28,980 nt of DNA from a virus: the IMG/VR virus record IMGVR_UViG_3300030105_002225, positions 1 through 28,980 of that record; one strand, written 5' to 3'. The notes beneath the pieces are model-generated. The model was not told the DNA's origin and ran no database searches. It saw nothing but the letters and a program-made list of their open reading frames with translations. The translations under genes were made by a program, and so were the position numbers. Positions within the stretch are counted from its first letter, which is position 1. Every line of letters starts with the position of its first letter. Positions 1,827-28,980 of the stretch are shown piece by piece.

Positions 1827-1827
1827 A

Positions 1828-4099: not shown

Positions 4100-4173
4100 A
4101 ATACTCCTGGGTGGGGCTAAGGATTTAACGAAAAGAAATCACTATTAATGCAAAACACTCAGCCCCATAAAGA

Positions 4174-4452: not shown

Positions 4453-5102
4453 TTTTTAGTTTTACCTTTCTTGAGTTCTATCTCGATTGCACGGAAGTGT
4501 TTTACAAATGTAGAAAATTTCTCAGGATCTCCCGCTTCTAGTCCTTTTAAAAATTCTTTAGTTAATGGTTCACTTACGACAGCTTTCAACGACTCAGTAT
4601 GACTGGCATTATCTAATCGTAGAATCACACTATCATAAGTGACCGTTTCAGTATTAAGTACGGTACCAGTATGTACTTGTCCTGACTTTTGCAGCAGCTC
4701 ACTATCTCTGATAGCATTTGCCAATTCCTCAGCTGAGGAAATCTTGTCATTGGATAAACCAAGATTAGCTAGGCATCTGCCCCAGCTGCTTGTTTCACAA
4801 TTTTCTAATGCGGATGTTTTATTGACTGGACCAACAGCTCTAAATTCTTCTGCGGTGCCAGTAGCAACTAAATTACCATCTATAAACAGAGATGCTTTCA
4901 TTACTACTCTGTTGGCATTGTTTTCTAATATTTCTGCATTTAAGGATGCCCTGGTGCCAAAATGTTTTCTTAACATTTGTATTCGAGGACCAACTTCAAG
5001 GTATTTTTTACCTTTTAATGAAATTGAAAGCTGTTCTTGTTTAATTGATAATTCGTTAATAGCGTTTTGTAGAATTTTATCTGCTGATGTTAATTGTGCC
5101 AT
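4449..5102 (-). CDS. Probable single-strand annealing recombinase
   Basis: The start at 5102 is preferred over the in-frame ATG at 5165 because AGGAGGG precedes it and the upstream start lies well inside the exonuclease gene. The 217-residue product has KYLEVGPRIQMLRKHFG early and the signature VNKTSALENCETSSWGRCLA (about residues 93-112). That signature recalls the TSxxENxETSAxGRALA motif of phage annealing proteins often labelled ERF or Rad52-like. It lies next to an exonuclease gene, as in lambda-Red-type systems. The family is assigned from motif memory and context, so the fold needs confirmation. Confidence 0.65.
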   Translation of the reverse strand: MAQLTSADKILQNAINELSIKQEQLSISLKGKKYLEVGPRIQMLRKHFGTRASLNAEILENNANRVVMKASLFIDGNLVATGTAEEFRAVGPVNKTSALENCETSSWGRCLANLGLSNDKISSAEELANAIRDSELLQKSGQVHTGTVLNTETVTYDSVILRLDNASHTESLKAVVSEPLTKEFLKGLEAGDPEKFSTFVKHFRAIEIELKKGKTKK

Positions 5103-5109
5103 AACCCTC

Positions 5110-6063
5110 CTATAAGTCGTGTGCTTGTTTGTATGCTTCTTTTGCCGTAGCCAGCTGTTCCTCACCTAAATCCCAATAAAAAGCATGTTCAAAATCGGGG
5201 TTCATAAAGCTCAGTAATCTTTTTACAGAACCTTTACTGTTAATAATGTGTCTATCTCTAAGTCGTGCTTGTTGTCTGTAAAACTCCATGTGCTCGGCCA
5301 TTGCATCAGCTGTTAACAAATCACAATTACTTGAATCAAAGATTTTATGTTCTTTGTCGTTTACATAAAGTAAGAAGGGTCGTTTTTGGCCACTTGCAAA
5401 ATGGTAGAAGCTGGTTTGTCGGCAGTGCTCAATTTGTGGAATTTCAGGAATCTTAACGGTACTAACAGACCTAGTGCCATCTTTCTTAACAGCATTTAAT
5501 TTAGGCAGCTTACATTTCTGTTCAATAAATTTAAGTTCATCTTCACCATCGATGCGGCCCAGCATATTAATATGAGCTAACGGTAAAGTAACGTTTCTTT
5601 CAGCGGTAACTTTAAAATTTTTTGTTGTTTTTAAATCAATGCTTTTAAAACCATCGTATGAATTTTTTAAATAAGCGGGAGCAAGGTGTTTTATAGCTTC
5701 AAACTTTTCACGATCTTTTTGATCCCAGGGGGCATAAGCTCTAATCTCATCGTTTAAAGTCTCCAGGGCTTGATCCATCGACATTTTGTTATTGTTTTCT
5801 ACCTTGTTACTACTGTAGGTCCAAATCTCATCACAAAACATCATTTGTGTAATGCTGCCAATAACGGTACCAAAAAACATATTAACATTAGTTTTTAAAT
5901 TACGTCTTTTATCTTGGTCCAAAGCAACATATTTGTAAGCCCATAGTGCCAATGGCATATTCATTTGCGTAGGACTGTAATGATCTAATCCAAATTCTAA
6001 AAATTCAGGAGGTACTATTCCTAAAATATCTTCTAATGATTCTGTTTTAATTTTTTGACTCAT
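5110..6063 (-). CDS. PD-(D/E)XK exonuclease (RecB/Cas4-like)
   Basis: A 317-residue product with the nuclease core LGRIDGEDE then KFIEQKCK, giving the D...E-x-K metal site. It is followed by QIEHCRQTSFYHFASGQK, like the QxxxY helix of the RecB family. It would resect double-stranded ends for the annealing protein encoded next, whose ribosome-binding site overlaps this stop. First gene of the leftward operon. No clear ribosome-binding site precedes the ATG, so its translation or start is less certain than the rest. Confidence 0.8.
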   Translation of the reverse strand: MSQKIKTESLEDILGIVPPEFLEFGLDHYSPTQMNMPLALWAYKYVALDQDKRRNLKTNVNMFFGTVIGSITQMMFCDEIWTYSSNKVENNNKMSMDQALETLNDEIRAYAPWDQKDREKFEAIKHLAPAYLKNSYDGFKSIDLKTTKNFKVTAERNVTLPLAHINMLGRIDGEDELKFIEQKCKLPKLNAVKKDGTRSVSTVKIPEIPQIEHCRQTSFYHFASGQKRPFLLYVNDKEHKIFDSSNCDLLTADAMAEHMEFYRQQARLRDRHIINSKGSVKRLLSFMNPDFEHAFYWDLGEEQLATAKEAYKQAHDL

Positions 6064-6098
6064 GTGAACTAATTAAATTGATTTGCTAAAAAAAGGCA

Positions 6099-6134
6099 AG
6101 ATAAAAAATCACATTAGATAAATTAAATCACATT
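6099..6134 (-). repeat. Two tandem copies of the AGAT...ATCACA motif before the leftward operon
   Basis: On the plus strand AGATAAAAAATCACATT (6099-6115) is directly followed by AGATAAATTAAATCACATT (6116-6134). The copies differ only by two inserted bases and local A/T changes. Related copies are at 7000-7018 (inverted) in the switch and 668-684 at the integrase promoter. The placement fits regulator binding or a leader-RNA signal. Confidence 0.6.
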
Positions 6135-6136
6135 GC

Positions 6137-6165
6137 AATATAATTGTAATATACATTGTATGTAA
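6137..6165 (-). promoter_or_regulatory. Candidate leftward early promoter (PL-like)
   Basis: On the minus strand TTACAT (6160-6165) and TATATT (6137-6142) are separated by 17 bp. The predicted start near 6130 puts the tandem motif in the leader of the exonuclease operon. The -35 is weak, which suggests activation or a wrong choice among several AT-rich options. Confidence 0.45.
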
Positions 6166-6180
6166 TTATTGAGGATATGC

Positions 6181-6203
6181 TTGATAATTGTTAGCATTAT
6201 CAA
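6181..6203. promoter_or_regulatory. 23-bp palindromic operator candidate
   Basis: Perfect 8-bp arms TTGATAAT and ATTATCAA flank the 7-bp centre TGTTAGC. It sits just upstream of the leftward promoter candidate and overlaps the end of the hairpin after the repressor gene. The position matches lambda OL. Confidence 0.55.
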
Positions 6204-6246
6204 ATACCACATTTAGACTTATTAGGCCTAAATATTAGTGGTATTT
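6202..6246 (-). terminator. Hairpin after the repressor gene
   Basis: Arms AAATACCAC (6202-6210) and GTGGTATTT (6238-6246) pair over 9 bp, with an inner ATTTAG/CTAAAT pairing and a central TTAGGCCTAA palindrome. It lies 29 bases past the repressor stop and may end its transcript, or insulate the leftward promoter. The tail is T-poor, so intrinsic termination is not certain. Confidence 0.5.
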
Positions 6247-6274
6247 TCTGAAGGAAAGGAAATATTTTATAGAA

Positions 6275-6952
6275 TTAGACGATGTATTTTGGTTTTATAA
6301 TAATAAAATCCATGTGATATAAATTGGTAACGTCTTTGTGTTCTATGGTTACATAACGTGTGTTTTGTATATCTCCAATGTACAACAATGGTTCAGTTTT
6401 TCCAATTGGGACACTTAATCCACACAACATGCCACAGAAAAAATCTTTGTTTTTTGTTTTAAGCATAATTGGAAACATCATAGAATCTTTTAAATTACTT
6501 AAAGTTGGATCTATTGATTGTTTGGAAAACAAATGCACTGATGGAATGTAATTAGCAAAGAAAAATTGTGAATTATCCTCACCAGGTGCAACTGCATAAT
6601 GGCTTTTAATAAATTCAGTGGGGCAATAAACCTTGGTTCCAGTGGGTTTAAATACGATACGCATATCATGGGTTTTACAAGGAATGGCATCTACCAGCTT
6701 TACACGACTTTCATCAACTTGGTAAAATTCAGTCCAACTAAAATCATAAGTTTCGGCAATGTCTTTAGCCAGCTCTACTGGTATTGGCCGTCTACCATTT
6801 ACAATTCTTGATAAATGTTCACGGGTGTACCACTTCTTACTACCCTTACTGTACTTGGTAAAAATTTCATCTATAGGTATATCTCTTACCTTTAATACTG
6901 GCTTCATTAAGAACCCATCTCCCATGTGAAGTGTTATTGGCTTTGCGTTCAT
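6275..6952 (-). CDS. CI-like phage repressor
   Basis: A 225-residue protein with an N-terminal helix-turn-helix region around YTREHLSRIVNGRRPIPVEL (about residues 42-61) and a longer C-terminal domain. Its place and direction equal lambda cI: leftward, between the leftward operon and a divergent cro-like gene. AGAGGA precedes the ATG. The C-terminal half has no visible GDSM-type serine motif or S24 lysine, so RecA-stimulated self-cleavage is not supported. Induction may need another factor. Confidence 0.75.
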   Translation of the reverse strand: MNAKPITLHMGDGFLMKPVLKVRDIPIDEIFTKYSKGSKKWYTREHLSRIVNGRRPIPVELAKDIAETYDFSWTEFYQVDESRVKLVDAIPCKTHDMRIVFKPTGTKVYCPTEFIKSHYAVAPGEDNSQFFFANYIPSVHLFSKQSIDPTLSNLKDSMMFPIMLKTKNKDFFCGMLCGLSVPIGKTEPLLYIGDIQNTRYVTIEHKDVTNLYHMDFIIIKPKYIV

Positions 6953-7105
6953 TCTATATTTTTCCTCTCATAATAATTTGTTTATCATAGTCTATTTTGG
7001 CTGTGATTTTTTATATCTTAATAGATCTATAATGTCTAAATAATTATATAATATTCTATATTTAGTGACTTTGATTTATTTGATCTATTGATACTAATAT
7101 AGAAT
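6951..7105. promoter_or_regulatory. Switch region between repressor and cro-like genes (OR-like)
   Basis: The divergent intergenic region carries three copies of ATTCTATATT: 6951-6960, 7053-7062, and inverted at 7096-7105. The outer two overlap the start codons of the repressor and cro-like genes. It also holds the palindrome ATAGATCTAT (7021-7030), a consensus TATAAT (7047-7052), a TTGATT/TAATAT pair (7071-7076, 7095-7100, 18-bp spacer) facing cro, and one inverted AGAT...ATCACA motif (7000-7018). Confidence 0.6.
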
Positions 7106-7325
7106 GTACTTATCAAAGTGGTGTGATCTACAGAAAATTGGCCAAAAAGAGCTTAAACAGAAGCTACAAACTGTATCACCCAGTTCAGTGAACAAATGGC
7201 TAAGGTCCAGAAGGTTCCCGTCAGTAGAAATGCTGATAAAAATCGAACACCTAACTGATGGAGCTGTCACTGCAAATGATTTTGTAAAACAATGGCAAGA
7301 ACAACAAGGACAGCATGGTAAGTAA
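7104..7325 (+). CDS. Cro-like transcription regulator
   Basis: A 73-residue small HTH protein. The helix-turn-helix spans IGQKELKQKLQTVSPSSVNK and WLRSRRFPSVEMLIKIEHLT, close to the Cro/YdaS type in which Q-x-L and the SxxxxNKWL recognition helix are usual. It is divergent from the CI-like repressor. No ribosome-binding site is seen and a -10-like TAATAT lies 3 bases before the ATG, so translation from a leaderless transcript is possible. It heads the rightward early operon. Confidence 0.75.
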   Translation: MYLSKWCDLQKIGQKELKQKLQTVSPSSVNKWLRSRRFPSVEMLIKIEHLTDGAVTANDFVKQWQEQQGQHGK

Positions 7326-7602
7326 AAAGAAATTTAACCTGGCTGATTCTCGGTTGGTAAAAATTACTTGGAACGATGCTCAGGACCATGAAACTGGATG
7401 GATAGAATTACATAAAGCTAAAAAACATAAACTAGCAGCTGTGGTGTCTGTTGGTTGGATCCTGGATGAAACTGATAAACAAATAACTTTAATAGCTGAC
7501 TTTGTACCTCAAGATAATGGCACCTCAAGAATAACAGCTATTCCAAAAGATTGGTGTCAAACAATAACAACATTAGTGGATGGTAAAGATGGATCCCGAT
7601 GA
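7315..7602 (+). CDS. Conserved phage protein of unknown function (95 aa)
   Basis: The ATG lies inside the end of the cro-like gene (11-base overlap). The product has VKITWNDAQDHETGWIELHK, then AAVVSVGWILDETDKQITLI, and IPKDWCQTITTL near the C-terminus. This W-x-DA ... VVSVGW ... IPK layout recalls a small beta-rich hypothetical family of phages. There is no established role. It is second in the rightward early operon. Confidence 0.75.
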   Translation: MVSKKKFNLADSRLVKITWNDAQDHETGWIELHKAKKHKLAAVVSVGWILDETDKQITLIADFVPQDNGTSRITAIPKDWCQTITTLVDGKDGSR

Positions 7603-7784
7603 TGAATTTGGTTGGATGGTATTTAATCCTATTTCATTTTGCATTAATTATTGGTGTCTTGATCTACAGCTATCACTTAGGTCAAGTATTTTTTATTTTA
7701 GAAGATCAGTGGACCGAAATTAAAATAGCACGAGAAAACATAGAACTAATTTGTATGGAGCTTGGTTGTAAATATGATAATTGA
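7599..7784 (+). CDS. Small membrane protein (61 aa)
   Basis: It starts at ATGATG overlapping the previous TGA. The N-terminal WYLILFHFALIIGVLIYSY is one transmembrane helix, followed by an amphipathic or acidic cytosolic segment (QWTEIKIARENIELI). In lambdoid early operons such proteins are diverse accessory genes. No family was recognised. Confidence 0.6.
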   Translation: MMNLVGWYLILFHFALIIGVLIYSYHLGQVFFILEDQWTEIKIARENIELICMELGCKYDN

Positions 7785-8265
7785 TTTAAAATGGTATGAG
7801 TTTTTTGCAGCAGCTTCTACTGGCATATTGCGTAAATCACAGTCCATTGCATTTGAACACAAAGATGCATACGGAGTCGTTTTTAACCCCATAGAAGATA
7901 TTGGCTGGCAAGTTGTATCAGCAGCTTCCGAAATGGCCTGTAGCAGTGCTCTAAATCGTTATTACAGTCATTCTGTAAACACTTTTAGTGCAGCTGACAT
8001 CGGTAAAAACATCGAGGTCAAATGTCAAATGCATCACAAGATTGATAGAAGTAAAAACACCAACTATTTAATCATGCGTGAGAACATGAACTCGGACTAC
8101 TTCTACATCCTGGTGTTGTGTCATTCATTAACGAGGTATGAGGTCCTGGGATATATCAAGGGAGCTGACGGCAAGAAACAAGAATGGCAAACTCAAGTTG
8201 GAAGCAGACCACCTTTTTATAAAGTACCACTAACAGCATTGACACCCATTGAGGTTATTCAGTGA
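7774..8265 (+). CDS. Hypothetical early protein with possible PD-(D/E)XK-like core
   Basis: The ATG at 7774 is chosen over an in-frame TTG at 7762, which would sit too close to the only purine-rich site. The 163-residue product has ADIGKNIEVKCQ in the middle, a possible D...E-x-K metal pattern, and a conserved-looking C-terminal part SLTRYEVLGYIKGAD, then SRPPFYKVPLTALTPI. I recall similar architectures in phage hypothetical proteins. The nuclease reading is inference only. The stop overlaps the GTG of the next gene. Confidence 0.65.
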   Translation: MIIDLKWYEFFAAASTGILRKSQSIAFEHKDAYGVVFNPIEDIGWQVVSAASEMACSSALNRYYSHSVNTFSAADIGKNIEVKCQMHHKIDRSKNTNYLIMRENMNSDYFYILVLCHSLTRYEVLGYIKGADGKKQEWQTQVGSRPPFYKVPLTALTPIEVIQ

Positions 8266-8819
8266 ACTGGGGCAGCTTCATCAGAGCTGACGTTACACCA
8301 CAAGCTAAGGTTGTATATCTCTACCTGGAGGAATTTATGGCCAGGCACAAACGAGTGTACTGCCGCCAAGGGACTATGGCTAAGGACCTGAGCTTAAGCA
8401 AGAGAACCATAGTGCGTTGCATTAAAGAGCTGTGTGATAAGAACTTTATCTCCAGGAAACGATTGCGGAGTAGCTGTGATTATTTTGTGCACCTAGGATT
8501 GTTACATCAAGAGACGCCAAATCTGTCCAGTATTAGTAAACCTAAATATACTAGAGTATCTAAGAATATATCTAAGACTAAGGAGACGACAAGGTTGTCG
8601 TCTCTAACGTCTCACCTGGGGAAGAATCTTAGCTTGCCATACAGAAATGCTGTTAAAGATATAAGGGGGGGGAAACGTCTTAGAAAGTCGGACCAACTAC
8701 TGAAAGATAAGTTCTTTGTAGAGATGAAATCTAAGGGCAATCACGAAGAGTTTTGGAGACAGCTCATTGAAGGTGAGATTGAGTGGCCAAAAGAACTACC
8801 AAAGTTAGGTAAGCAATGA
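8262..8819 (+). CDS. O-like replication initiator with N-terminal winged helix
   Basis: It starts with GTG overlapping the previous TGA (GTGA). Residues 1-75 form a winged helix of the phage replication-protein O or HTH_36 type: RADVTPQAKVVYLYLEEF, MAKDLSLSKRTIVRCIKEL and CDKNFISRKRLR. The C-terminal half is basic and Ser/Lys rich and would contact partner proteins. The gene contains tandem repeats and a perfect palindrome (8557-8604), the place where lambda keeps its origin inside O. Replication would then depend on host enzymes. Confidence 0.7.
   Translation: MNWGSFIRADVTPQAKVVYLYLEEFMARHKRVYCRQGTMAKDLSLSKRTIVRCIKELCDKNFISRKRLRSSCDYFVHLGLLHQETPNLSSISKPKYTRVSKNISKTKETTRLSSLTSHLGKNLSLPYRNAVKDIRGGKRLRKSDQLLKDKFFVEMKSKGNHEEFWRQLIEGEIEWPKELPKLGKQ
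8557..8684. other. Candidate replication origin inside the O-like gene
   Basis: Two 12-bp tandem repeats TATCTAAGAATA (8557-8568) and TATCTAAGACTA (8569-8580) are followed by a palindrome with arms GAGACGACAA (8583-8592) and TTGTCGTCTC (8595-8604). An inverted TCTTAGA lies at 8678-8684, and CGTCTC or its complement recurs nearby. AT-rich DNA precedes the repeats. The arrangement resembles iterons next to a structured element, but no initiation is shown. Confidence 0.45.
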
Positions 8820-9223
8820 GCATAAGTTCAATACAAGTGATAGATTTGTTTCAAACAGCCTATGACACTGACAAGAAGCTTCCAGCAGTCTTTAAAAAGG
8901 GAGCTAACTCAATGAAGTTTGATGTAGTACATGAAAAATCGGACCATCATGCTTGGAGTAAACAAGAGATCAGAATAGCAGCATCAAGTAATGAGATTAG
9001 AACCTATGAGTATTGCTTATTCTATTTAAATCCATTGATGAGTGTTGAAGAAAGAAAACTAGTATGGGCTAGATGCTATGGAGCACCTTGGCATTGGATT
9101 GGTAAGAACATCTTACGTTGCTCACGACACACTGCAAAGAAAAGATATATGAACATAATAAGACTGCTAAGGATGCGTATTTGTATTGATGAAAAATTAC
9201 TTGCCAAGTTACCTCGAATATGA
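8816..9223 (+). CDS. DUF6362-like phage protein
   Basis: 135 residues, ATGA overlap with the initiator gene. The second half, PLMSVEERKLVWARCYGAPW then HWIGKNILRCSRHTAKKRYM, matches the WaRa...pWk.Ia...sr.TA pattern that I associate with DUF6362, a phage family with a helix-turn-helix-like C-terminus. It occupies the position of lambda P, but nothing shows helicase loading. The role may be DNA binding in replication or late switching. Confidence 0.65.
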   Translation: MSISSIQVIDLFQTAYDTDKKLPAVFKKGANSMKFDVVHEKSDHHAWSKQEIRIAASSNEIRTYEYCLFYLNPLMSVEERKLVWARCYGAPWHWIGKNILRCSRHTAKKRYMNIIRLLRMRICIDEKLLAKLPRI

Positions 9224-17298: not shown

Positions 17299-17886
17299 AT
17301 GACATCAGTAGTAGAAATTTGTAACTCAGCTTTAAATAGTTTGGGTGCAACTAACATCACCGCACTTACAGAAGATTCTAAAAATGCCAGGCTATGTAAT
17401 CAACGGTATGAACCAATCCGTGATGCAATTTTTAGAACGCATTATTGGAATTGTTTAATCAAACGAGTACAACTAGCAGCTGATACCACGACACCAGCAT
17501 ACGAATTTGCCTATCAATACACGTTACCATCAGACAGTATTCGAGTTATGAAAATTGGTGGTTATCACAATGGCTCATCATCAGACTTAGACAGCGGTCA
17601 AAAATTTAAAGTTGAAGGTCGTAAAATTATTACCGATGAAGCTGAAGTATTTTTAACGTATCTGGCTAAAGTTGTAAATCCCCAGGAGTACGACACATTA
17701 TTAGTTGAAACTATTGGTGCACGATTATGTGCAGAAATAGCTTATGCTATTACGCAATCCACTACTGTTGCAACACAACTACAAGAAATTTATCAAAGCA
17801 AACTAAAAGAAGCACGCTTTGTGGATGCTACTGAAGGCACTCCATATAGCCTAGACTCAAGTTCATTTATTAATTCGAGGTTTTAA
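17299..17886 (+). CDS. Tail tubular protein A (T7 gp11-like adaptor)
   Basis: 195 residues, matching the size of T7 gp11. The N-terminal VVEICNSALNSLGATNITAL, the RYEPIRDAIFRTHYWNC motif and the later LVETIGARLCAEIAYAITQS are typical of this gatekeeper family. It would attach below the portal and bind the nozzle protein. Its stop overlaps the start of the tail tubular B gene. Confidence 0.92.
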   Translation: MTSVVEICNSALNSLGATNITALTEDSKNARLCNQRYEPIRDAIFRTHYWNCLIKRVQLAADTTTPAYEFAYQYTLPSDSIRVMKIGGYHNGSSSDLDSGQKFKVEGRKIITDEAEVFLTYLAKVVNPQEYDTLLVETIGARLCAEIAYAITQSTTVATQLQEIYQSKLKEARFVDATEGTPYSLDSSSFINSRF

Positions 17887-20672
17887 TGGCTAAGACAACT
17901 TTTGCCTTTACCAGCTTTGCTGCTGGTGAACTATCTCCACGTTTAGATGGTCGAACTGATTTACAACAGTATTTCAGGGGATGTCGTACTTTAGAAAATA
18001 TGACAGTACATCCACACGGAGGAGTTTCCAGACGACCAGGTACCGTTTATGCCAGTGAAGTCAAAACCAGTGGTAATTCTACACGACTAATCCCATTTGA
18101 ATTTTCAACTACACAAACTTACATGATGGAGTTTGGTGATGAGTATGTACGTTTTTTTAAAAACAACGGTATTATTACTGAGTCAGGCAAAACCATTACA
18201 GCTATTACTAAAGCTAATCCTGGAGTAGTTACTGCTAACTCTCATGGTTATTCTGCTGGTGATTATGTAATCTTAGCTGGAATTGTTGGCATGACTGAAC
18301 TTAATGGCCGACAATTTAAAGTAGGTACTGTTGCAACTAACACGTTTCAATTGCTAGATATGGACGGCAATAATTTTAATACCTCAGCCCTAACTACTTA
18401 TTCTTCAGATGGCACAGCATTTAGAATTTATCAAATTGTATCACCTTACGATAAGGCTGATTTATTTGGATTGAAGTATGCACAATCAGCAGATGTCATG
18501 TACATCACTCACCCTAATTATCCCATCAAAAAATTAAGTCGAACTGGTCACACATCGTGGACCTTAGATTCAGTTCTATTAGATACAGGTACTGATTTTA
18601 CAGTTTCAGCAATTACCAAAGCCAATCCAGGTGTTGTTACTACTTCAGCTAACCATGGATTTGCAGTTGGAGACTTTATAACTTTTAGAAGTATTGGTGG
18701 TATGACACAATTGGCTGATAACCTTTTATTTAAAGTTGGTACAATACCAAACGCTACTACGTTTCAATTGCAAAATGCAGCTGGTACAAATGTTAATACT
18801 AGTGGCTTTGGAACATTCAGTGCTGGTGGTAGTGATGTGGTAGAACGAGTTAATAACCCAGTATTAAATTATGCCACTGGCAATTATCCAAGCACCGTAT
18901 CTTTTTTCGAGCAACGTTTAGTCTTTGGAGGTACTGACAACAATCCTCAATCATTATGGTTTAGTAAAGCTGGTGCGTATGAAAACTTTACCACTGGTGT
19001 TAATGCCACTGATGCTATGATTTATACCATTGCATCTAACCAAGTAAATGCCATTAGGTTTTTATCTGCTACCAATCAATTATTAATTGGTACTGTTGGT
19101 GGTGAGTTCTTAGCTACTTCAGGCAGTGTCAGTGAACCTGTAACCCCAACTAATATTCAAATTACCAAGCAAACTAACTATGGAGCTGCCAATGTGGATG
19201 CATTGCAGATTGCCAACGTTACAATGTTTTTACAACGAGCTAAAAGAAAAATTAGAGAGCTAGTCTACAACTATGATGTTGATGGTTATGTAGCACCTGA
19301 TATGACAATTTTAGCTGAACATATTACTACTGGTGGTTTAATCCAATTTGCGTATCAACAAGAACCTGACAGTATTTTATGGGCTGTAAGAGATGATGGC
19401 ACTTTACTGGGATTGACTTACCAAAGAAATGAAGAAGTAGTAGCCTGGCATCGACACATCTTAGGCGGCTTTGCTGACACTGGTAAAACAATTGTTCATG
19501 CTTTTAAAAGCTGGACCGCTAGTTCTAGTACTGTAAGCACAGCCAACAACACTGTCACAATTAGTTCACACGGCTATAGCACAGGTGATCCTATTTATTA
19601 TTATGCTACTGCTAATGTTATTGGTGGCTTGCAAACTGACTTATTATATTTTGCTATAGCAACTAACTCCAACACACTTAAATTTGCTACAACCTCAGCT
19701 AATGCAACTGCGGGCACAGCTGTTGACATAACAAGTATTACTGGCTCAACAGTGCAGTACATATTTGAAGGTGTAAACATAGCTACTAACGTTTTATATT
19801 CAGCAGCCCATGGATTATCTACTGGTGATTATTTTTATTATCGACCAGTTGGAACTAAACTTTCAGGTTTAAGTAAAAATGCTAAATATTTTGTAAAACG
19901 AATAGACGACAACCAATTTAAAGTTTCTGCTTCATCCGATCTAAGTACATTTTTAGATTTACAATATGCTGCTTCCAGCAGTGCTACTGAAACTGATTTA
20001 ATATTAACTGATGCTAAATGTGAATCAATTGGGGTAGTACCAAGTGATGATGGTGAGTATCAATTATGGATGGTGGTTAATCGTTTCGTTAATGGAGCAA
20101 CTAGAAGAACAGTTGAATATTTAAATGACTTTGATTTTGGTGACACCCAGGACGATGCGTTCTTTATGGATAGTGGCTTAACTTATGACAGTGTGCCTAC
20201 TACCACGCTATCAGGCCTGGACCATTTAGAAGGTGAAACTGTAACTATCCTGGCAGATGGAGCATCACATGCTGATAAAGTAGTTAGTGGTGGCAATATA
20301 ACTTTAGATCGATCCGCACAAAAAGTGCACGTTGGTTTAGGTTATACATCTCTATTGCAAACATTACGCATTGAAGCTGGATCAGCTCAAGGTGTGGCTC
20401 AATCTAAAATTAAACGTATTAACGAAATAACTATTCGGATGCACAAAACCCTTGGCTTAGAAGTTGGCGGTGATTTAGACAACATGGAAAATATCCCATT
20501 TAGATCAAGTAGTGGATTAATGAATGTACCAATTAGTTTATTTTCAGGTGATAAAACCATTGAGTTTAGAGATGATTACAATACGGATGGTCATGTGTTT
20601 GTAAGACAAGCACAACCTTTACCATTAACAATATTGGCCATCTATCCTGAAGTTACAGTATATGAAGGATGA
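17886..20672 (+). CDS. Tail tubular protein B (T7 gp12-like nozzle) with FCCH-like repeats
   Basis: 928 residues. The N-terminus FTSFAAGELSPRLDGRTDLQ is the classic tail tubular B opening. Four beta repeats of the 'HGyxxGDxvx...G...Ln...F.V......F.L' kind occur at about residues 101-178, 238-318, 548-625 and 630-700, similar to the E1 FCCH-domain module often inserted in these nozzles. The first two are close paralogues (both contain ITKANPGVVT). It ends with QPLPLTILAIYPEVTVYEG, the conserved nozzle end. Confidence 0.92.
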   Translation: MAKTTFAFTSFAAGELSPRLDGRTDLQQYFRGCRTLENMTVHPHGGVSRRPGTVYASEVKTSGNSTRLIPFEFSTTQTYMMEFGDEYVRFFKNNGIITESGKTITAITKANPGVVTANSHGYSAGDYVILAGIVGMTELNGRQFKVGTVATNTFQLLDMDGNNFNTSALTTYSSDGTAFRIYQIVSPYDKADLFGLKYAQSADVMYITHPNYPIKKLSRTGHTSWTLDSVLLDTGTDFTVSAITKANPGVVTTSANHGFAVGDFITFRSIGGMTQLADNLLFKVGTIPNATTFQLQNAAGTNVNTSGFGTFSAGGSDVVERVNNPVLNYATGNYPSTVSFFEQRLVFGGTDNNPQSLWFSKAGAYENFTTGVNATDAMIYTIASNQVNAIRFLSATNQLLIGTVGGEFLATSGSVSEPVTPTNIQITKQTNYGAANVDALQIANVTMFLQRAKRKIRELVYNYDVDGYVAPDMTILAEHITTGGLIQFAYQQEPDSILWAVRDDGTLLGLTYQRNEEVVAWHRHILGGFADTGKTIVHAFKSWTASSSTVSTANNTVTISSHGYSTGDPIYYYATANVIGGLQTDLLYFAIATNSNTLKFATTSANATAGTAVDITSITGSTVQYIFEGVNIATNVLYSAAHGLSTGDYFYYRPVGTKLSGLSKNAKYFVKRIDDNQFKVSASSDLSTFLDLQYAASSSATETDLILTDAKCESIGVVPSDDGEYQLWMVVNRFVNGATRRTVEYLNDFDFGDTQDDAFFMDSGLTYDSVPTTTLSGLDHLEGETVTILADGASHADKVVSGGNITLDRSAQKVHVGLGYTSLLQTLRIEAGSAQGVAQSKIKRINEITIRMHKTLGLEVGGDLDNMENIPFRSSSGLMNVPISLFSGDKTIEFRDDYNTDGHVFVRQAQPLPLTILAIYPEVTVYEG

Positions 20673-21109
20673 TAGAAATAATTCCGTTTGAATTTGAGCA
20701 TGCTAAATTTATAGCTACGCATCAAATGAACGCTGAGATTATTAATGTTAAAGATCGATACTTAAAAAATTTAGAAAGTTTAGTTCAACCTAAAACAAGT
20801 TGGACTGGATTAGTTGATGGTAAAATAATAGCAGCTGGTGGCATGGTAGAATTATGGGACCATGTTTACGAAGGCTGGATTATGGCAACGGCAGATATAA
20901 AAAATCATCCGATTGCTACTGCAAGAATAATAAAAAGAATTTTTAAAAAGCAAATGCCTTTACATAAGGTGCAACGTTTACAAACAACAGTCAAAGCAGA
21001 TTATGCCATTGGTCATAAATTTGCTGATTGGCTAGGATTAACACAAGAGGGTTTAATGAAACAATATTTAGATGGTGATGATTATTACCTATATGCGAGG
21101 ACTTACTAA
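20669..21109 (+). CDS. T7 gp13-like protein with GNAT-like fold
   Basis: 146 residues, ATGA overlap with tail tubular B. WTGLVDGKIIAAGGMVELWD, YEGWIMATADIKNHPIATAR and the end YLDGDDYYLYARTY match the acetyltransferase-like fold of the Gp13 family, found at the same place after the nozzle gene in T7-like phages. T7 gp13 is needed for ejectosome assembly. The CoA-binding loop is not obvious, so activity is doubtful. Confidence 0.75.
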   Translation: MIEIIPFEFEHAKFIATHQMNAEIINVKDRYLKNLESLVQPKTSWTGLVDGKIIAAGGMVELWDHVYEGWIMATADIKNHPIATARIIKRIFKKQMPLHKVQRLQTTVKADYAIGHKFADWLGLTQEGLMKQYLDGDDYYLYARTY

Positions 21110-21582
21110 TGGCTAGTAGTATATTAAGTGCTGGTGCAAGTGTTCAAGCTGGGAGAGCTGCTGAGAATGATGCCAAAGCTAACAAGCAAATAGCAGAACG
21201 TAATGCCGATAAACTAAAGATGGATGCTGAGACGGCTATCAAGCTTGGCAATCGAGATGTAAAAATATTTGATAATCAATTTGAAACATTACAAGCTGAA
21301 ACAGAAATGGCTTATTTAAAGTCAGGTGTAACATTATCAGGTACAGCTTTAGAGGTATTAGAAAATAACTATGCCCAAGCTGAGATGGAAAAAGAAACCA
21401 TTAGGTACAATGCTAAAGTAGACTCAGCTGATAAAATTGAGCTAAGTGTTATTTCACAAATGCAAGGTGCCGCAGCTCTAGCAAGAGGACAAAACGCAAA
21501 ACGAGCTTCATATCTAACGGCTGGTTCAACATTATTGAAAGGTGGAAGTGACGCTAAAGATGCGGGAACTTTCATGGTATAA
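21109..21582 (+). CDS. Internal virion protein (gp14-like)
   Basis: 157 residues. A Gly/Ala/Ser N-terminus (SSILSAGASVQAGRAAENDA) is followed by a long Ala/Lys/Glu helix, and the end is SYLTAGSTLLKGGSDAKDAG. T7 gp14-type ejection proteins have this helical, low-Cys composition, and the place in the gene order matches. It would form the outer-membrane part of the ejection channel. The ATG overlaps the preceding stop. Confidence 0.75.
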   Translation: MASSILSAGASVQAGRAAENDAKANKQIAERNADKLKMDAETAIKLGNRDVKIFDNQFETLQAETEMAYLKSGVTLSGTALEVLENNYAQAEMEKETIRYNAKVDSADKIELSVISQMQGAAALARGQNAKRASYLTAGSTLLKGGSDAKDAGTFMV

Positions 21583-21585
21583 ATT

Positions 21586-23424
21586 ATGGTAAAAATTCCA
21601 ACATACGAAAGTCAAACAGTAGCTAAAGCTCCTATTAGTCGTAATCGACCTTTAATAGCAGACAGTGGTGCAGCTGAGGTTTATGCAACAGCAGCTCAAG
21701 CAGCAAATGTTGCTGGTGAGGTTTTACAAAAACATACAGCTATTAAGAATGATAAAGACTTATTAGCGGCAATGAAAAAGTACAAAATTGGGGACATAGA
21801 CAACAATCAACCTGGTGAAAACCAAATGATTATTACAGCATCAACTAGTGACGATTTTGAAACGGCCCTACCCAGTTATAACGAAGCTGCTAAAGCCTGG
21901 CAGCAACAAGTAGCTGAGAGTATTTCGAATGGGCAAGTAAGAGATAAATTTTTAATCAAAAGCGGTGAAAGTTTATTAAGTGGTTATCTAAATGTAGAAA
22001 GATCAGTATTTTCAAATAACCGTACATCTTATCAAGAAACTATTAAAGACGATGCTACCGATACCGTTAATAATTATGTCGAAGCATTTTTAGTTAAAGA
22101 CACTTTAGGCTTATCTCAAGCGGGTGCTAAATTATTTGGCACACTTGATAACGAAGGTGCCATTAAAGATTTCTCATTTGGCCAAAGATTAAAAGATCGA
22201 GGTATGTTACCCGCTGGTACTACAGCAGAGCAGTATGATGAGAACATGAAAGTTGCTATGCTTAATACATTAGCCGTATCTCTTATTGAAAATAATCCAG
22301 CAGAATTTATAAATCTTGAAACAAAAGATTTTTTTAATTTAATCGATCCTAGCAAATTAGTTGAGTACAAAGCAAAAGCTAATGATTCTTACAACAATAA
22401 ATCGGTTATAAGTTTATTAGAATTTTTGCCATTAGACACCACAAGAAGTGAAGAAGAAACAGAAGCATTATTCTTACAAGCAGATAGTGGCAATTTTGGT
22501 GGTGATGAAAATAAAAAAGTACTTCTTGACTCTTTAGACGCAGAGGGAAAATTAAAATTTTCTCAAGCCTTGTCTCAACGCAAATCAGAAATTAAAGCTG
22601 AGATATCTTGGGATCGTCAAAATACAGCTTTTAAAGAAAATGTAGCTAATGAAGCAGTTTATATGGGTGCGTACCAAGGCATATTCAATGGCACTGTTGG
22701 GATTGATGATCTTAATGGTATGAACTGGCAAGGTGTAACAGGCAGTGCAATGAAGGACCAACTTAAATTGTTAGTTGTATCTCGTGCTAATGGTCAGTTG
22801 CCGACTGATGGCAGTTTAACTCAATATAACAAGATTTTTGACCAAGTAGTAAATAAAGAAATTTTAGACGTAACGTCACCATTTTTATTACAAGGTGAAA
22901 CTGAAGCTAAAAGTATTATTCAACGTACTGGTGGCTTAGATGGTTTGGGTTTTAATCAGTTTCAAAATTTATCTTCGTTAATGACTAAAACTAACAACAA
23001 AGATTTAATATTTCAAGAGCAACAATTTCAAGAATTTTTGATAGCTTATGGAAAACAAATTTTGGGTTCACCAGCTTTTGAAAAATATAATGTCAAAGGC
23101 AAAGGCCGCCAGTTTCAATTCAATCTAGTCATGCGTACTGCTTATGAAAATGGTATTAAGGAAGGATTTGCCCCACTCGATTTATTGTCTGAAACAAGCC
23201 CTAATTTTATAGGAATCAATTTAGACAAATTTTTACCTTCAAATAGACAGTTAATGGAAGAAATTGCAGCATCAGCAAAAGGCAGTGAGGATGGATCTGA
23301 AGTGTCACTAGATATAAAATCATGGTTAGATGTAGCACCACAAAAACCAGCTGGAATGTCTAAGGATGAGTGGCAAGAAACCAAAGAATATAAAGAGTGG
23401 AAAAATAAAGAACCAACAAGTTAA
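21586..23424 (+). CDS. Internal virion protein (gp15-like)
   Basis: 612 residues, helical and charged, starting MVKIPTYESQTVAKAPISRN and ending EWQETKEYKEWKNKEP. The assignment rests mainly on gene order (13-14-15-16-17 of T7) and length. No enzymatic domain was seen. It would be ejected into the periplasm with its larger neighbour. The ribosome-binding site is weak. Confidence 0.7.
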   Translation: MVKIPTYESQTVAKAPISRNRPLIADSGAAEVYATAAQAANVAGEVLQKHTAIKNDKDLLAAMKKYKIGDIDNNQPGENQMIITASTSDDFETALPSYNEAAKAWQQQVAESISNGQVRDKFLIKSGESLLSGYLNVERSVFSNNRTSYQETIKDDATDTVNNYVEAFLVKDTLGLSQAGAKLFGTLDNEGAIKDFSFGQRLKDRGMLPAGTTAEQYDENMKVAMLNTLAVSLIENNPAEFINLETKDFFNLIDPSKLVEYKAKANDSYNNKSVISLLEFLPLDTTRSEEETEALFLQADSGNFGGDENKKVLLDSLDAEGKLKFSQALSQRKSEIKAEISWDRQNTAFKENVANEAVYMGAYQGIFNGTVGIDDLNGMNWQGVTGSAMKDQLKLLVVSRANGQLPTDGSLTQYNKIFDQVVNKEILDVTSPFLLQGETEAKSIIQRTGGLDGLGFNQFQNLSSLMTKTNNKDLIFQEQQFQEFLIAYGKQILGSPAFEKYNVKGKGRQFQFNLVMRTAYENGIKEGFAPLDLLSETSPNFIGINLDKFLPSNRQLMEEIAASAKGSEDGSEVSLDIKSWLDVAPQKPAGMSKDEWQETKEYKEWKNKEPTS

Positions 23425-23427
23425 ACT

Positions 23428-26400
23428 ATGACTTCATTATTAAAAGAAATAAATGAGATGCAAGCCACGGGCTTTAGCCAGGGAGAAATTGATAATTTTT
23501 CAGCAACTAAAAGAGCAGAACTAAAAGCCCAGGGTTATACAGACAATGAGATTCTATCTGAGTTTGGTGTTAAAAAAACTCCAAATACAGATCAAGAAGA
23601 GTATTGGGCTAACGTTTCAAAGCTATCTTATTCAGAACAGGCTACCCGCAATCTTACTGATAAAATTAAAAGTGATAATGAGTGGATGCCTGAAATAGAG
23701 TATGGCGTTGGTGGTCCAAGACCTACATCAGAAACTCAATTAATGATTGATGATTATGTAAACAACTCTAGCTCTGATGAAAATGAATTTGAATTAAAGA
23801 GATATTTTTCAAGAGGATTAGATGGTTCTACTATTAATCTAATGAAAAATTATTATACGACTGGTGAAGTGCCTGATGTTTATAAAAATACTGATTTAAC
23901 TAATCCGAGTACCATAGAACGAGTTACACAATCACTCGGTCAAATACTAGCTGATGCACCTATTTATGTTGGTGCTGGTGGTGCAACTACTTTTGCAACT
24001 GGTAGTCCTATAGCTGGTGGATTTGCAGCTGGGTTTGTAAATGGATCTTTACGAGAAAGTTACTTAGAAGCTTTGGAACGTGGAGATGTCAATACTTTTA
24101 AAGAGTGGTCCGATGTTTTTGTTGAAGAAGGTTTTAAAGGTGGATTAAAAGAAGGAGCCATGATTGCCGCAGCTGTTGCTGCACCTGGAGTTGGTGGCTT
24201 TGTAATGAATAAGTTTGCTCCTGTAGCTACTGCACAATTATCTAAAATTTACGGGGCTAAAGCATTTGGTAAATATGCTGCTAGTTGGGCTGGTTTTAAT
24301 ACTGCTATGGGTGTTATTGAGCAAAGGATGCCAACAAAAGAAGAGCTGGTAGATTCAGCTATCCTATTTGGTATCTTGGGGTTTGGTTCTAAAGGTATAG
24401 AAAACACTTATAATTATATAAAAAAGAATCCTGAAAAATCAGTTTTAGAATCTACTCAAGAAATCATTAATGATCCAATTTTAAAAGAAGATATTTTAAG
24501 TGTTAATAATGTAGATCGACATACTCCAATTGTTAGAACACAAGAACGATTAAGTATCTTAGAGCAAAAAGAAGCAAAGGTTGGTAGAAATGAAATGTCA
24601 TTTGTTGAAGCCAACGAACTTAAATCATTAAGAGAATTGAATGAGAAAGGTGAAATACCAGGTGAGTTTGATATTAGTCTAAATATTGACACTATGGACA
24701 CAATCTCATTAAAAGATTTATTTAATGAATCTTTATATAGCAAATCAAGAGTTAAAGATTTATTGGAAAGTCCAGAGTTTGAAAACCATCCTGAAATTTT
24801 AAGACTAAAAGATAGTGTTGCTAGAATTGAAACAACTTTAGACAAAGCAAAAAGAGAAGGTAAATTTGATGAAACAACTAATACCTTTACTGAAGCTTGG
24901 AAGCTAGAAAACAATTGGGCCCAAATTATTAAAGATTTAAATTCTAATGTAAACGCCAGTAGCAACCGCAAAGCTGTTATATTATATGGTGGCTCTGCAA
25001 CAGGTAAATCTACACAAGCAAATCGTATTAATAGCGGTGAACAAAAATATCAAATAGTTGATCCTGATTTTGTAAAAGAACATCCACAATTTGCTAAAAC
25101 ATATGAAGATGGCAAAGGAGCTAATGCCTTGCATTTTGAAAGCAAAGCCATTGCTAACAGAATTTTAGACCAATCTACTAATAAAGGCACCAATGTAATA
25201 GTGCCTTTAGTTGGTAGTGGTGGTACAGCAAACGTAGCAGCTATAGCTAAAATGTTATATAACAAAGGTTATGAAGTTACTGTTGGTGGATTAGAAACAT
25301 TAGCTAACGAAGCTATCTATAGAACATTAAAAAGAACATTGGACAACGGCAGATATGTCCCTATAGAGTATGTTAAATCTGCAGCTAAACAATCAAGGGA
25401 AAATTACGAATATGCAAAAGAACTCAAAGAAGTCTCAGAAACCTTTAGACTCGACACTACCCCTAAAGGGGAACCAATCCTTATTGAACGATCAGGAACT
25501 GGCACAACAAATGTTGAAACAAGACGAGATGGCGGAACAGGATCTGCTGAATCTTCTAACAGCATCGGCATCCCAAATGTCGAAAGAAAAAGCGTAGCTG
25601 AAAGCATAAGTTACGAACCTCCAAAAAGGGAAAGAGTTCCTTTTGAGGATTTAAAAAATGAATTTATTAGAACTGTTGTCGATCAATTCCATCCGTTATT
25701 AAGAGCTGTCAGAAGAGTTGGTCCTGAAGAATATAAAAATGGTAGATTAAATCCATACGAAGAAATACGCACACAGCCAGGCATGGTAGGAATTGCTATG
25801 CAATTTATAACTAATGCTACATTTGAATTTGGATCACAAGCACGAGTCACTGGAAAAAGCTTATTAGAAGTTTTAAAACCATTAAAAAATATGGCCGACT
25901 ATGCAAGACTGTCTGAATATTTAGTATCTAAAAGAGTAATTGAATTAAATCAAAGAGGAATTAAAACTGGTGTAGATTTAGTTGATGCTCAACGTATTGT
26001 AAAAGAAAGACGAGCAGAATACGAAACTATCTCCAAAGAATTAGAAGGGTTTCAAGATCGTTTGTTACAATACATGGCTGACTCAGGTATTCTAAGTGAA
26101 AAGGCTTTAGCGGCAATGCGTGAGGCTAATAAAGATTATGTTCCATTTAGTAGAGTGCAAGATATTAATAAAAAAGGTTCTGCTACTGGTGCTGGTTCTT
26201 TAAGTAAAGAAGTTTCAAATCCTATTAAAAAAATTAAAGGCAGTAATCTAAAAATTATTGATCCTATAGAATCTATTTTTGGCAACGTATTTCATTTTAT
26301 TACAGTTGCAGAACGCAATGCATCTGTAAAAAGTTTTATTGAAATGACTGAAAAATTTCCTGAAAAATTTCCTGAAGTAAATAAAGTTAAAACTAAAATG

Positions 26401-28230
26401 AAAGCTGTTAAAATTACGACAGAAGAAATGAACACAGTATTTGAAAATTCAAAAATTGATGCAAAAACTGCTGAAAATTTGACAGTGTTTAGAAGAGAAA
26501 ACACAGTGCTTTCTGAAACAGAAGTGGTTATCTTTAGAAATGGTGAAAAAGAAGTTTGGCAAGTTGGTAGAGAATTTGCAACAGCTATCCGAGGTTTAGA
26601 CAAAGTAAATTTAGCTAGATATATAAGAGCTTTTTCAATTCCATCAAGATTATTAAGAGCTGGCTCTACTTTATCACCTGACTTCTTTATAAGAAATTTA
26701 CTTAGAGACACATCTCAGTCAGGCATCTTTTCTAAATCAGGCAGTATTTTACAAGCAGCTCCCATACTATCCACGTTTCGTGGTGTGTTTCACATGATGT
26801 CAGGCAAGCTATCACCTAAAATTGATTCTATGACTAATAAGTTTGAACGCTCAGGTGCGGTACAATCAATGTTAGTGAGTATGGATAGAAACTACATGGA
26901 TGTTAAAGTACATAAAGAATTAAATATCTTGCCCGTATGGAATAAAGTGAAGGGTGCTAATCCATTAGAACTATTAAGAATTTTGTCTGAAGCTACAGAA
27001 ACTACAACTCGTATGGCAGAATTTTCATCAGCTTACAATAAAGCTTTGAAAAATGGATTAACAGAAAAAGAAGCTTTGCGTAGAGCTGGGTTTGAAGCAC
27101 GGGATGTTACTTTAGATTTCTCCAAACGTGGTGCTAAGATGCAATCTATTAATGCTATTACTGCTTTCTTTAATGCCAATATTCAAGGTTGGGCTAAATT
27201 AGCAGAAGGTTTTAGAGATCAACCAGGAGTCACTACTGCTCGAATAGCTACTTATATTATGTTGCCAAGTGCCTTAATGTGGTGGGTCAATCACGATAAA
27301 GAAACATACAAAGAGTTACCCCAATGGCAAAAAGATATGTTTTGGATTGTTATTACTGGAGAAGGACCTGAAGAAGTGGTTTACAGAGTACCAAAACCAT
27401 TTGGCCCTGGTATTCTTTTTGGTACTGGCACAGAAAGAATATTAGATTTAATGTTCTCTGAAACTCCTGATGATGTATCTGAATTTTTAACCGAGTTTGT
27501 AGCAGATAATGCAACTGATTTAATTCCTGATCCTGACATCGTAAAACCATTTATAGAGCAAGCATTTAATAAAAATACTTTTACCAATCAACCTATTGTG
27601 CCTTATAGCATGGAAGGTATTTTCCCTGAATATCAATATACTCCATATACGAGTGAAGTAGCCAAGGAAATTGGTAATACAATTAGAGCTTTTATGAACA
27701 CAGCTGATCCTGATGGTAAAGCTGGCACATTTTCACCAGTTACTAGCCCAGCAAGAATTGATGCTATTTTAAAAGGCTGGTCAGGTACACTTGGTAAATA
27801 TGTATTAGAAGCTGCTGATGCAGCTTTAATAGCAAGTGGTTATTCAGAAGATCCTATTAGGCCAGCAAAAAAATTGTCTGACATGCCATTTATAAAAGCA
27901 TTTGTAGTTCGTCACCCATCTTCAGGTTCTGAATTTATTGAAGATTTTTATAAAGAATATGAAGAAATACAAACAGCTTTAACCACTTTAAATCAAGTAG
28001 AACCTTCTGAAGTAGGCAACGTAATTGATATTATAGATCAAGATATTGGGTTTGATTATATAGCTCTGCAAGCTTATGCTGACGTTTTAAACTCACAACG
28101 AAGTTTAATTAATATTGTGATTAGAGATAAGGTTAATTACAGCCCTATTGAAAAACGCCAAATATTAGACGATACATATTATCAAATGATTACCATAGCC
28201 AAAGAGGGCTTAAAACTATTCAATAAATAA
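23428..28230 (+). CDS. Giant ejection protein with zeta-toxin-like kinase and LPD38 domains
   Basis: 1600 residues in the place of T7 gp16. Two Gly/Ala-rich hydrophobic stretches (about 172-206 and 243-265) may insert in membranes. Residues ~505-690 resemble a zeta toxin/UDP-sugar kinase: Walker A GGSATGKST (521-529), VDPDFVKEHPQF with D545/D547, and a late TLDNGRYVPIEYVKSAAKQS. The C-terminal half contains RLLRAGSTLSPDFFIRN (1074-1090) with nearby RD and later FSKRGAK...FNANIQG, matching the large polyvalent-protein domain LPD38. No lytic transglycosylase motif was seen, unlike T7 gp16. It is probably injected with the DNA. Confidence 0.8.
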   Translation: MTSLLKEINEMQATGFSQGEIDNFSATKRAELKAQGYTDNEILSEFGVKKTPNTDQEEYWANVSKLSYSEQATRNLTDKIKSDNEWMPEIEYGVGGPRPTSETQLMIDDYVNNSSSDENEFELKRYFSRGLDGSTINLMKNYYTTGEVPDVYKNTDLTNPSTIERVTQSLGQILADAPIYVGAGGATTFATGSPIAGGFAAGFVNGSLRESYLEALERGDVNTFKEWSDVFVEEGFKGGLKEGAMIAAAVAAPGVGGFVMNKFAPVATAQLSKIYGAKAFGKYAASWAGFNTAMGVIEQRMPTKEELVDSAILFGILGFGSKGIENTYNYIKKNPEKSVLESTQEIINDPILKEDILSVNNVDRHTPIVRTQERLSILEQKEAKVGRNEMSFVEANELKSLRELNEKGEIPGEFDISLNIDTMDTISLKDLFNESLYSKSRVKDLLESPEFENHPEILRLKDSVARIETTLDKAKREGKFDETTNTFTEAWKLENNWAQIIKDLNSNVNASSNRKAVILYGGSATGKSTQANRINSGEQKYQIVDPDFVKEHPQFAKTYEDGKGANALHFESKAIANRILDQSTNKGTNVIVPLVGSGGTANVAAIAKMLYNKGYEVTVGGLETLANEAIYRTLKRTLDNGRYVPIEYVKSAAKQSRENYEYAKELKEVSETFRLDTTPKGEPILIERSGTGTTNVETRRDGGTGSAESSNSIGIPNVERKSVAESISYEPPKRERVPFEDLKNEFIRTVVDQFHPLLRAVRRVGPEEYKNGRLNPYEEIRTQPGMVGIAMQFITNATFEFGSQARVTGKSLLEVLKPLKNMADYARLSEYLVSKRVIELNQRGIKTGVDLVDAQRIVKERRAEYETISKELEGFQDRLLQYMADSGILSEKALAAMREANKDYVPFSRVQDINKKGSATGAGSLSKEVSNPIKKIKGSNLKIIDPIESIFGNVFHFITVAERNASVKSFIEMTEKFPEKFPEVNKVKTKMKAVKITTEEMNTVFENSKIDAKTAENLTVFRRENTVLSETEVVIFRNGEKEVWQVGREFATAIRGLDKVNLARYIRAFSIPSRLLRAGSTLSPDFFIRNLLRDTSQSGIFSKSGSILQAAPILSTFRGVFHMMSGKLSPKIDSMTNKFERSGAVQSMLVSMDRNYMDVKVHKELNILPVWNKVKGANPLELLRILSEATETTTRMAEFSSAYNKALKNGLTEKEALRRAGFEARDVTLDFSKRGAKMQSINAITAFFNANIQGWAKLAEGFRDQPGVTTARIATYIMLPSALMWWVNHDKETYKELPQWQKDMFWIVITGEGPEEVVYRVPKPFGPGILFGTGTERILDLMFSETPDDVSEFLTEFVADNATDLIPDPDIVKPFIEQAFNKNTFTNQPIVPYSMEGIFPEYQYTPYTSEVAKEIGNTIRAFMNTADPDGKAGTFSPVTSPARIDAILKGWSGTLGKYVLEAADAALIASGYSEDPIRPAKKLSDMPFIKAFVVRHPSSGSEFIEDFYKEYEEIQTALTTLNQVEPSEVGNVIDIIDQDIGFDYIALQAYADVLNSQRSLINIVIRDKVNYSPIEKRQILDDTYYQMITIAKEGLKLFNK

Positions 28231-28349: not shown

Positions 28350-28980
28350 ATGACACTATCAACTACAACTGTGAAGAACAGTTATACTGGCAATGCATCT
28401 ACAACTGCATTTAACTACACATTTTCAATTAACTCGACAGCGGAGCTGGTGGTTATTGAGAGAAGTGCAGCTGGTGTAGAAACTGTAAAAGCTTTAACCA
28501 CTCACTATACTATTGCCGATGCTGGTTCATCAGGTGGTACTGTTACATTTGGTACGGCCCCAGCTTCAGGGGTAACTGTAGTGCTTATTCGAGATACTTC
28601 ATTAACCCAAGAAACAGATTATGTAGCTAACGATCCTTTCCCAGCTGAAACTCACGAAGATACTTTAGACAAACTGCAAATGCAAATTCAAGAGGTCCAG
28701 GAAGAAGTTGATCGTTCTATGAAACTATCAAGAACGAATACCATGACTTCTACTGAGTTTACGAACTCAGCTACTGATCGTGCATCTAAAGTCCTGGCGT
28801 TTGATAGCTCAGGTGAATTATCCGTTACCCAAGAATTAGGAACTTTTAGAGGAACATCTGCAACTACTACTACGGCAGCTCACGTTATAAGAGATTTAGT
28901 TAAAGGCTCAACTACAGCACAACTGAATAATATTTATATTTGTATTCAAGCTAGTCCAATCGGCACAGCTCTAACTAATA
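28350..28980 (+). CDS. Tail fibre protein, N-terminal part (T7 gp17-like; partial)
   Basis: The frame is open from the ATG (AGGA upstream) to the window edge, 210 codons. The N-terminal region contains NYTFSINSTAELVVIERSAA, then VTFGTAPASGVTVVLIRDTS and the coiled-coil-like ETHEDTLDKLQMQIQEVQEE followed by VDRSMKLSRTN. This is the typical virion-attachment domain of T7 gp17-type fibres. The receptor-binding part lies beyond the window. It follows a terminator, so it may use its own promoter or read-through. Confidence 0.92.
   Translation, partial: MTLSTTTVKNSYTGNASTTAFNYTFSINSTAELVVIERSAAGVETVKALTTHYTIADAGSSGGTVTFGTAPASGVTVVLIRDTSLTQETDYVANDPFPAETHEDTLDKLQMQIQEVQEEVDRSMKLSRTNTMTSTEFTNSATDRASKVLAFDSSGELSVTQELGTFRGTSATTTTAAHVIRDLVKGSTTAQLNNIYICIQASPIGTALTN

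Follow-up and report, generated by a model that had tools for sequence, protein, structure and literature searches.

A zeta-type P-loop kinase domain appears to be inserted between the two conserved halves of a 1600-residue ejection-type protein of a podovirus-type phage, and throughout the viral subfamily to which this domain belongs the ATP-site residues are kept and the UDP-N-acetylglucosamine (UNAG)-site residues are not. The phage, of marine type, is the IMG/VR virus record IMGVR_UViG_3300030105_002225, and the whole stretch of 28,980 bases that was analysed is referred to here as the window. In the reading that we favour, to which we assign a probability of about 0.5, the protein would be packaged and ejected and would act as an active kinase on a molecule other than UNAG.

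Genomic setting of the kinase-bearing gene

The record also encodes a terminase, a head-tail connector, a capsid protein and T7-like tail and internal virion proteins, as identified with PHROG profiles, and the presence of an integrase at its left end (1828-3051; PHROG 1, E 3e-36) indicates that the phage is probably temperate. The kinase is borne by an ORF with an ATG start, in the following setting:

17299..20672, + strand, tail tubular protein A and B homologues
20669..21582, + strand, two internal virion protein homologues (PHROG 308, E 4e-10; PHROG 418, E 2e-12)
21586..23424, + strand, gp15-sized ORF of 612 aa in the T7 gp15 position
23428..28230, + strand, ejection-type protein of 1600 aa in the gp16 position, an LPD38 polyvalent protein bearing the kinase
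28350..28979, + strand, N-terminus of the tail fibre (PHROG 1640), cut by the window end

The order of the two internal virion genes, the gp15-sized ORF, the 1600-aa ORF and the tail fibre is annotated identically in the Pelagibacter phages HTVC034P and Lederberg EXVC029P, and HTVC204P has one extra small gene. Family profile searches gave no match for the 612-aa ORF. The 1600-aa ORF, lying between this gp15-like ORF and the tail fibre, occupies a T7 gp16-type position, and the initial annotation was right in placing LPD38 and the kinase in one chain at this point of the gene order. A length of 1600 aa, the combination of LPD38 with a kinase and the location between internal virion and fibre genes together give the product the make-up of a polyvalent protein.

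Two neighbouring genes have features of their own. The tail tubular protein B homologue (17886-20672) matches Pfam E1_FCCH over two stretches (E 1e-24), an odd domain for a tail protein and probably a reflection of repeats. The positional counterparts of the PHROG 308 homologue (20669-21109) in pelagiphages are annotated as acetyltransferases, so that a GNAT-like protein may also be present in the ejection cassette.

The kinase as an insertion at a variable hinge

The 1600-aa protein was divided as follows:

23428..24522, + strand, N-terminal scaffold, residues 1-365, common to HTVC034P, Lederberg EXVC029P, HTVC204P and the IMG/VR relative L004
24523..24768, + strand, hinge or linker, residues 366-447, absent or short in isolated homologues
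24769..24942, + strand, N-terminal extension of the kinase module, residues 448-505, with an HPEI motif common to relatives
24943..25497, + strand, zeta-fold kinase core, residues 506-690, supported by Pfam, profile, AlphaFold2 and fold matches
25633..28227, + strand, C-terminal scaffold, residues 736-1600
27301..27894, + strand, LPD38, residues 1292-1489 (Pfam E 4e-39)

The isolated homologues infect Pelagibacter and match residues 1-365 and ~680/740-1599, with ~10-50 residues between the two blocks. The LPD38 homologues of HTVC034P, EXVC029P and HTVC204P share the gene position, residues 1-365 and residues ~735-1600 with the window protein but are without the kinase. Because isolated pelagiphage homologues thus share both flanks in its absence, we read the kinase, with high confidence from these alignments, as an insertion at a variable hinge between conserved halves. 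At the kinase site L004 has a charged K/E linker, and the hinge is partly common to the kinase proteins of L100, L103, L104, L080 and L115. The kinase was present in only two of the 17 IMG/VR homologue records searched, and a further contig (L043) ends inside it. One relative, L031, is 93% identical to the window overall, with a dS of 0.43 in residues 448-505 and 0.33 in residues 506-690, higher than the 0.04-0.20 of other parts, which suggests allelic exchange of the kinase module; the dN/dS of 0.37 in the kinase core would be consistent with purifying selection, both readings being drawn from this one sequence pair.

T7 gp16 and the window protein have a common gene position but differ in that the latter lacks an SLT transglycosylase, and no such domain was found anywhere in the record. 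A review describes the N-terminal SLT domain of gp16 as phage-specific (PMC8954989), and it is therefore not a strict requirement for a gp16-type protein. In L009 (4989-10295) an SLT transglycosylase does stand at the N-terminus of an LPD38 homologue, which connects LPD38 proteins with ejection proteins of the gp16 type. In Pelagibacter phage HTVC010P (L035, 5962-9585) several annotated ORFs together make up the gp16-position region that corresponds to the window protein, which reflects either a split gene or sequence errors. Hydropathy analysis of residues 1-365 gave a single segment near 242-264, just above threshold and too weak for membrane topology.

The domain has a zeta-type kinase fold

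The Pfam Zeta_toxin family (PF06414) matched residues 510-665 with E 5.2e-12 and 46.1 bits, well above the curated cut-off of 22.3 bits, and a genome search gave E 9.5e-16. By single sequence, PezT was the best match in the PDB (E 1.4e-4), and with a 49-sequence profile zeta (1gvn/3q8x) was the best solved structure (E 5e-9). An AlphaFold2 model built from the 49-sequence alignment (pLDDT 87.3, pTM 0.86) had zeta as its top Foldseek match (E 1.8e-9). When the predicted fold was compared by VIA-align, Z was 16.2 over 198 residues for zeta 1gvn_B, 15.5 over 227 residues for AvrRxo1 (4z8t), 14.9 for PezT and 13.9 for polynucleotide kinase; the gap between the first two is below one Z unit, so zeta and AvrRxo1 are structurally tied. 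It is near certain that residues ~506-690 form a zeta-type P-loop kinase domain, as had been suggested from the sequence, and both profile search and structure prediction now bear this out.

The Clostridium thermocellum polynucleotide kinase was the next fold match after the zeta family, and this raises the alternative that the domain is a polynucleotide-kinase-like enzyme that repairs or marks DNA or RNA ends, be they those of the incoming genome or those of host RNA. PHROG 505 'polynucleotide kinase' supports this with a weak match to the window (E 3e-4) and with matches to relatives such as L103 (E 2e-10), and a kinase within a DNA-ejecting protein would adjoin DNA ends. However, the matches to zeta and AvrRxo1 have higher scores and extend over more residues, and the 1600-aa chain showed neither a phosphatase nor a ligase as partner domain, and we regard such an activity as improbable.

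The ATP site is kept and the substrate site is altered

The motifs named in the initial annotation for residues ~505-690 were all found in place, including VDPDFVKEHPQF (residues 544-555 of the 1600-aa product) and GRYVPIEYVKSA (residues 641-652). The functional elements of the core are:

24988..25014, + strand, Walker A GGSATGKST, residues 521-529; K527 is equivalent to zeta K46
25060..25068, + strand, DxD, residues 545-547; D547 is equivalent to the zeta catalytic D67 (alignment and profile)
25132..25143, + strand, HxES, residues 569-572; H and E invariant in the subfamily
25192..25215, + strand, NVIVPLVG, residues 589-596; P593 and V595 in place of zeta E116 and T118
25321..25353, + strand, lid arginines R632, R636 (zeta R158) and R642 (likely zeta R171)

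The equivalences of D547 with D67, R636 with R158, P593 with E116 and V595 with T118 come from the sequence-profile alignment to 1gvn rather than from superposed coordinates; R642 lies in the lid, beyond the point at which that alignment stops, and is invariant in 49/49. The subfamily alignment comprises 49 viral sequences, most of them ~20-40% identical to the window kinase, and K527, D545, D547, K550, H569, E571, N589, G596, R636 and R642 are invariant in all of them. D67, E116, R158 and R171 are indispensable to zeta for both toxicity and ATPase activity, which E116A abolishes (PMC6356619); T118 contacts the UDP beta-phosphate, and PezT in which this residue is changed to valine is nontoxic (PMC3062530). 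At the E116 position the viral subfamily has proline in 44/49 sequences and an acidic residue in none (0/49), and at the T118 position V or I in all 49.

Since E116 and T118 are replaced subfamily-wide while the ATP-site residues are kept, a substrate shift away from UNAG appears well supported, and the domain is likely not to be a UNAG kinase. Since the catalytic residues are invariant in 49 divergent sequences, it is probably an active kinase. That the new substrate might be nucleotide-like, for example, is a guess. The suggestion that a zeta-type kinase arriving with the genome could act on cell-wall precursors thus fares unevenly, the kinase fold standing firm on the Pfam, profile and Z-score evidence and the cell-wall target being weakened by the replacements of E116 by P and T118 by V across the subfamily.

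That suggestion corresponds to a proposal that Iyer et al. made in 2017 (PMC5512222) about the zeta domains of polyvalent and MuF proteins, namely that a UNAG kinase delivered with DNA weakens or halts cell-wall synthesis at entry. The top fold and profile matches to zeta, and the match of the window member to NCBIfam PezT (E 1.2e-5), agree with this proposal, but two positions needed for zeta/PezT toxicity are changed, and a lethal injected toxin would presumably oppose lysogeny and give little to a phage that carries an integrase. We therefore consider UNAG phosphorylation by this domain unlikely. At E up to 0.01, NCBIfam AvrRxo1/XopAJ (NF041405) was matched by 18 of the 49 members, far below its curated cut-off, and PezT by 7 of the 49, and the window member had no match to NF041405.

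Without E116, the proposed magnesium-binding acid, the enzyme could be weak or inactive, though the other catalytic residues are kept. Were the zeta fold non-catalytic, it would be retained for structure or for nucleotide or DNA binding in packaging and ejection, and its fusion to structural proteins, including one portal-kinase-MuF ORF (L111), is in keeping with such a role. A purely structural domain would not, however, need the Walker lysine, catalytic aspartate and lid arginines that are found in 49/49 sequences, and we think this explanation quite unlikely. An active kinase with an altered substrate is the reading that we carry forward.

Searches for an antitoxin agreed with the earlier remark that none is seen next to the domain. 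No match to the epsilon antitoxin (PF08998), the type sought across the whole record, was obtained, and none of the scanned neighbours of the kinase ORF resembled an antitoxin.

Distribution of the kinase subfamily

IMG/VR yielded 65 loci when queried with an alignment; two are the window's own kin, and the counts given here refer to the other 63. The kinase subfamily is encoded by ~60 IMG/VR contigs, some of them near-duplicates. At 37 of the 63 loci the kinase is preceded, on the same strand, by window-like genes for capsid, tail or internal virion proteins, and at 28 a window-like fibre gene follows downstream, with both at 27. At most tail-cassette loci the kinase occupies the C-terminal part of an ORF of ~720-1240 aa, which is followed by an ORF of ~830 aa and then by the fibre. 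Among the proteins matched by the ~830-aa ORF are annotated virion structural proteins of podoviruses, those of Vibrio included, and unnamed Yersinia phage proteins, and Pelagibacter phages are also represented. The closest cassette relatives (L100, L103, L104 and L115; 37-40% kinase identity) are also related to the window in their tail tube, internal virion and fibre genes.

Fusion of the kinase ORF with the ~830-aa ORF was considered as an origin of the window protein, but comparison of profiles from three such ORFs with the C-terminal region of the window protein gave no support (probability 0.1). The scaffolds are therefore treated as unrelated, and on these comparisons the kinase is taken to occur on at least two unrelated podovirus ejection scaffolds.

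The kinase is also found in LPD38 polyvalent proteins of L085, L092, L093, L098, L102 and L054, and in L099 it occurs with ddrB-ParB. In L085 (2409-12290) a single chain of 3294 aa carries LPD38 and the kinase together with an ADP-ribosyltransferase (ART-PolyVal). In L054, a bacterial genome, a 2462-aa polyvalent protein (1750-9135, minus strand) bears the same kinase subfamily and a zinc-peptidase-like HEVGHH motif, and its C-terminal region is homologous to the LPD38 part of the window protein (31% identity, E 9e-112). A single ORF of 1154 aa in L111 (5967-9428) encodes a portal, the kinase and a MuF-like head domain, and this is the clear case of a portal-kinase-MuF fusion. Seven of 27 relatives matched PHROG 21 'portal', but these were not counted as evidence that portal fusion is common because in L060, the one examined in detail, the match is confined to positions 1026-1325 of 1362 of the profile, near its C-terminal end. 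An open-access literature search found no paper on zeta toxins with portal fusions.

In a phylogenetic tree the subfamily stands apart from the zeta domains of haloviruses, PSS2, Bacteroides phages and plasmids (support 96/92), its exact placement being unsure owing to long outgroup branches. With the window domain as query, a single-sequence search of bacterial genomes gave no match, an alignment query being necessary there, and a plasmid search returned only weak zeta matches (E 2e-3 and worse). PADLOC gave no match.

Discussion

Our working model is that a zeta-fold small-molecule kinase, inserted at the hinge of a gp16-position ejection protein, would be packaged and then ejected with the DNA, would reach the host cytoplasm, the site of ATP, and would there phosphorylate a hydroxyl of a non-UNAG molecule, most plausibly a nucleotide-like one, so as to give the phage an advantage in the first minutes of infection. 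Delivery with DNA is suggested by gene position and homology, and packaging and ejection are probable on these grounds. When T7 gp16 is ejected, its N-terminal part is found in the periplasm and its C-terminal part in the cytoplasm (PMC8954989); should the window protein follow the same pattern, cytoplasmic ATP could come within reach of a kinase located between its halves.

T7 gp16 is present at 4-6 copies per virion (PMC8954989), and zeta works at ~1100-1350 per minute, roughly 20 turnovers per second (PMC6356619). By our estimate, 4-6 copies at the zeta rate would accomplish some 5-7 x 10^4 events in ten minutes. Given generally known cell volumes, this would be a sizeable share of the pool of a 1 mM metabolite only in very small cells; as regards UNAG, it would cover the pool in a marine cell of very small size, a point in favour of a UNAG target, and would fall ~tenfold or more short for a cell the size of E. 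coli, a point against it. A scarce signal or a local target could be affected in any cell.

A kinase of this general kind is already known, since zeta-like kinases in polyvalent and MuF proteins were reported by Iyer et al. (2017; PMC5512222). Those systems resemble ours in that a zeta-type kinase is fused to a large protein predicted to travel with invading DNA; they were reported for conjugative elements and MuF fusions, whereas here the kinase is found in an LPD38 protein in the T7 gp16 position and in podovirus ejection cassettes, and the E116/T118 motif is replaced by PxVG. With the epsilon/zeta and PezAT systems (1gvn, 3q8x, 2p5t) the window domain has in common the fold, the Walker A lysine, the catalytic aspartate, R158 and probably R171, but it is without an epsilon antitoxin, E116 and T118 are replaced, and it is buried in a 1600-aa virion-type protein. 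AvrRxo1, from a crop pathogen, is an injected bacterial effector of zeta fold that has kept the ATP site and lost the UNAG site, does not phosphorylate UNAG significantly and phosphorylates NAD at the 3' hydroxyl (PMC5087710), and so provides a precedent for a changed substrate. It is like the window domain in its fold, its retained ATP site and its lost UNAG-site residues, a likeness taken from the published description and from family and fold matches, the window failing its NCBIfam model; AvrRxo1, however, is delivered by type III secretion with a partner protein. What is new, within the reach of these searches and of the open-access literature, is the location in the gp16 position and in ejection cassettes, with two scaffolds, together with the PxVG subfamily and the case against UNAG as its substrate.

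Taken further, and only tentatively, these data may point to an unnamed, widespread PxVG family of virion-delivered zeta-fold kinases, carried on at least two unrelated podovirus ejection scaffolds and on polyvalent and portal-MuF proteins, that would act in the first minutes of infection on a nucleotide-like host target rather than UNAG, such as a defence signal or an adenine dinucleotide. Were NAD-like or signalling nucleotides its substrates, such a kinase would serve in counter-defence or takeover at an early stage, reaching the cell before phage gene expression. With one kinase family, unrelated scaffolds and a predicted substrate change, the polyvalent-protein idea would become directly testable in marine podoviruses, and a 'zeta toxin' label on a phage protein need not mean cell-wall attack.
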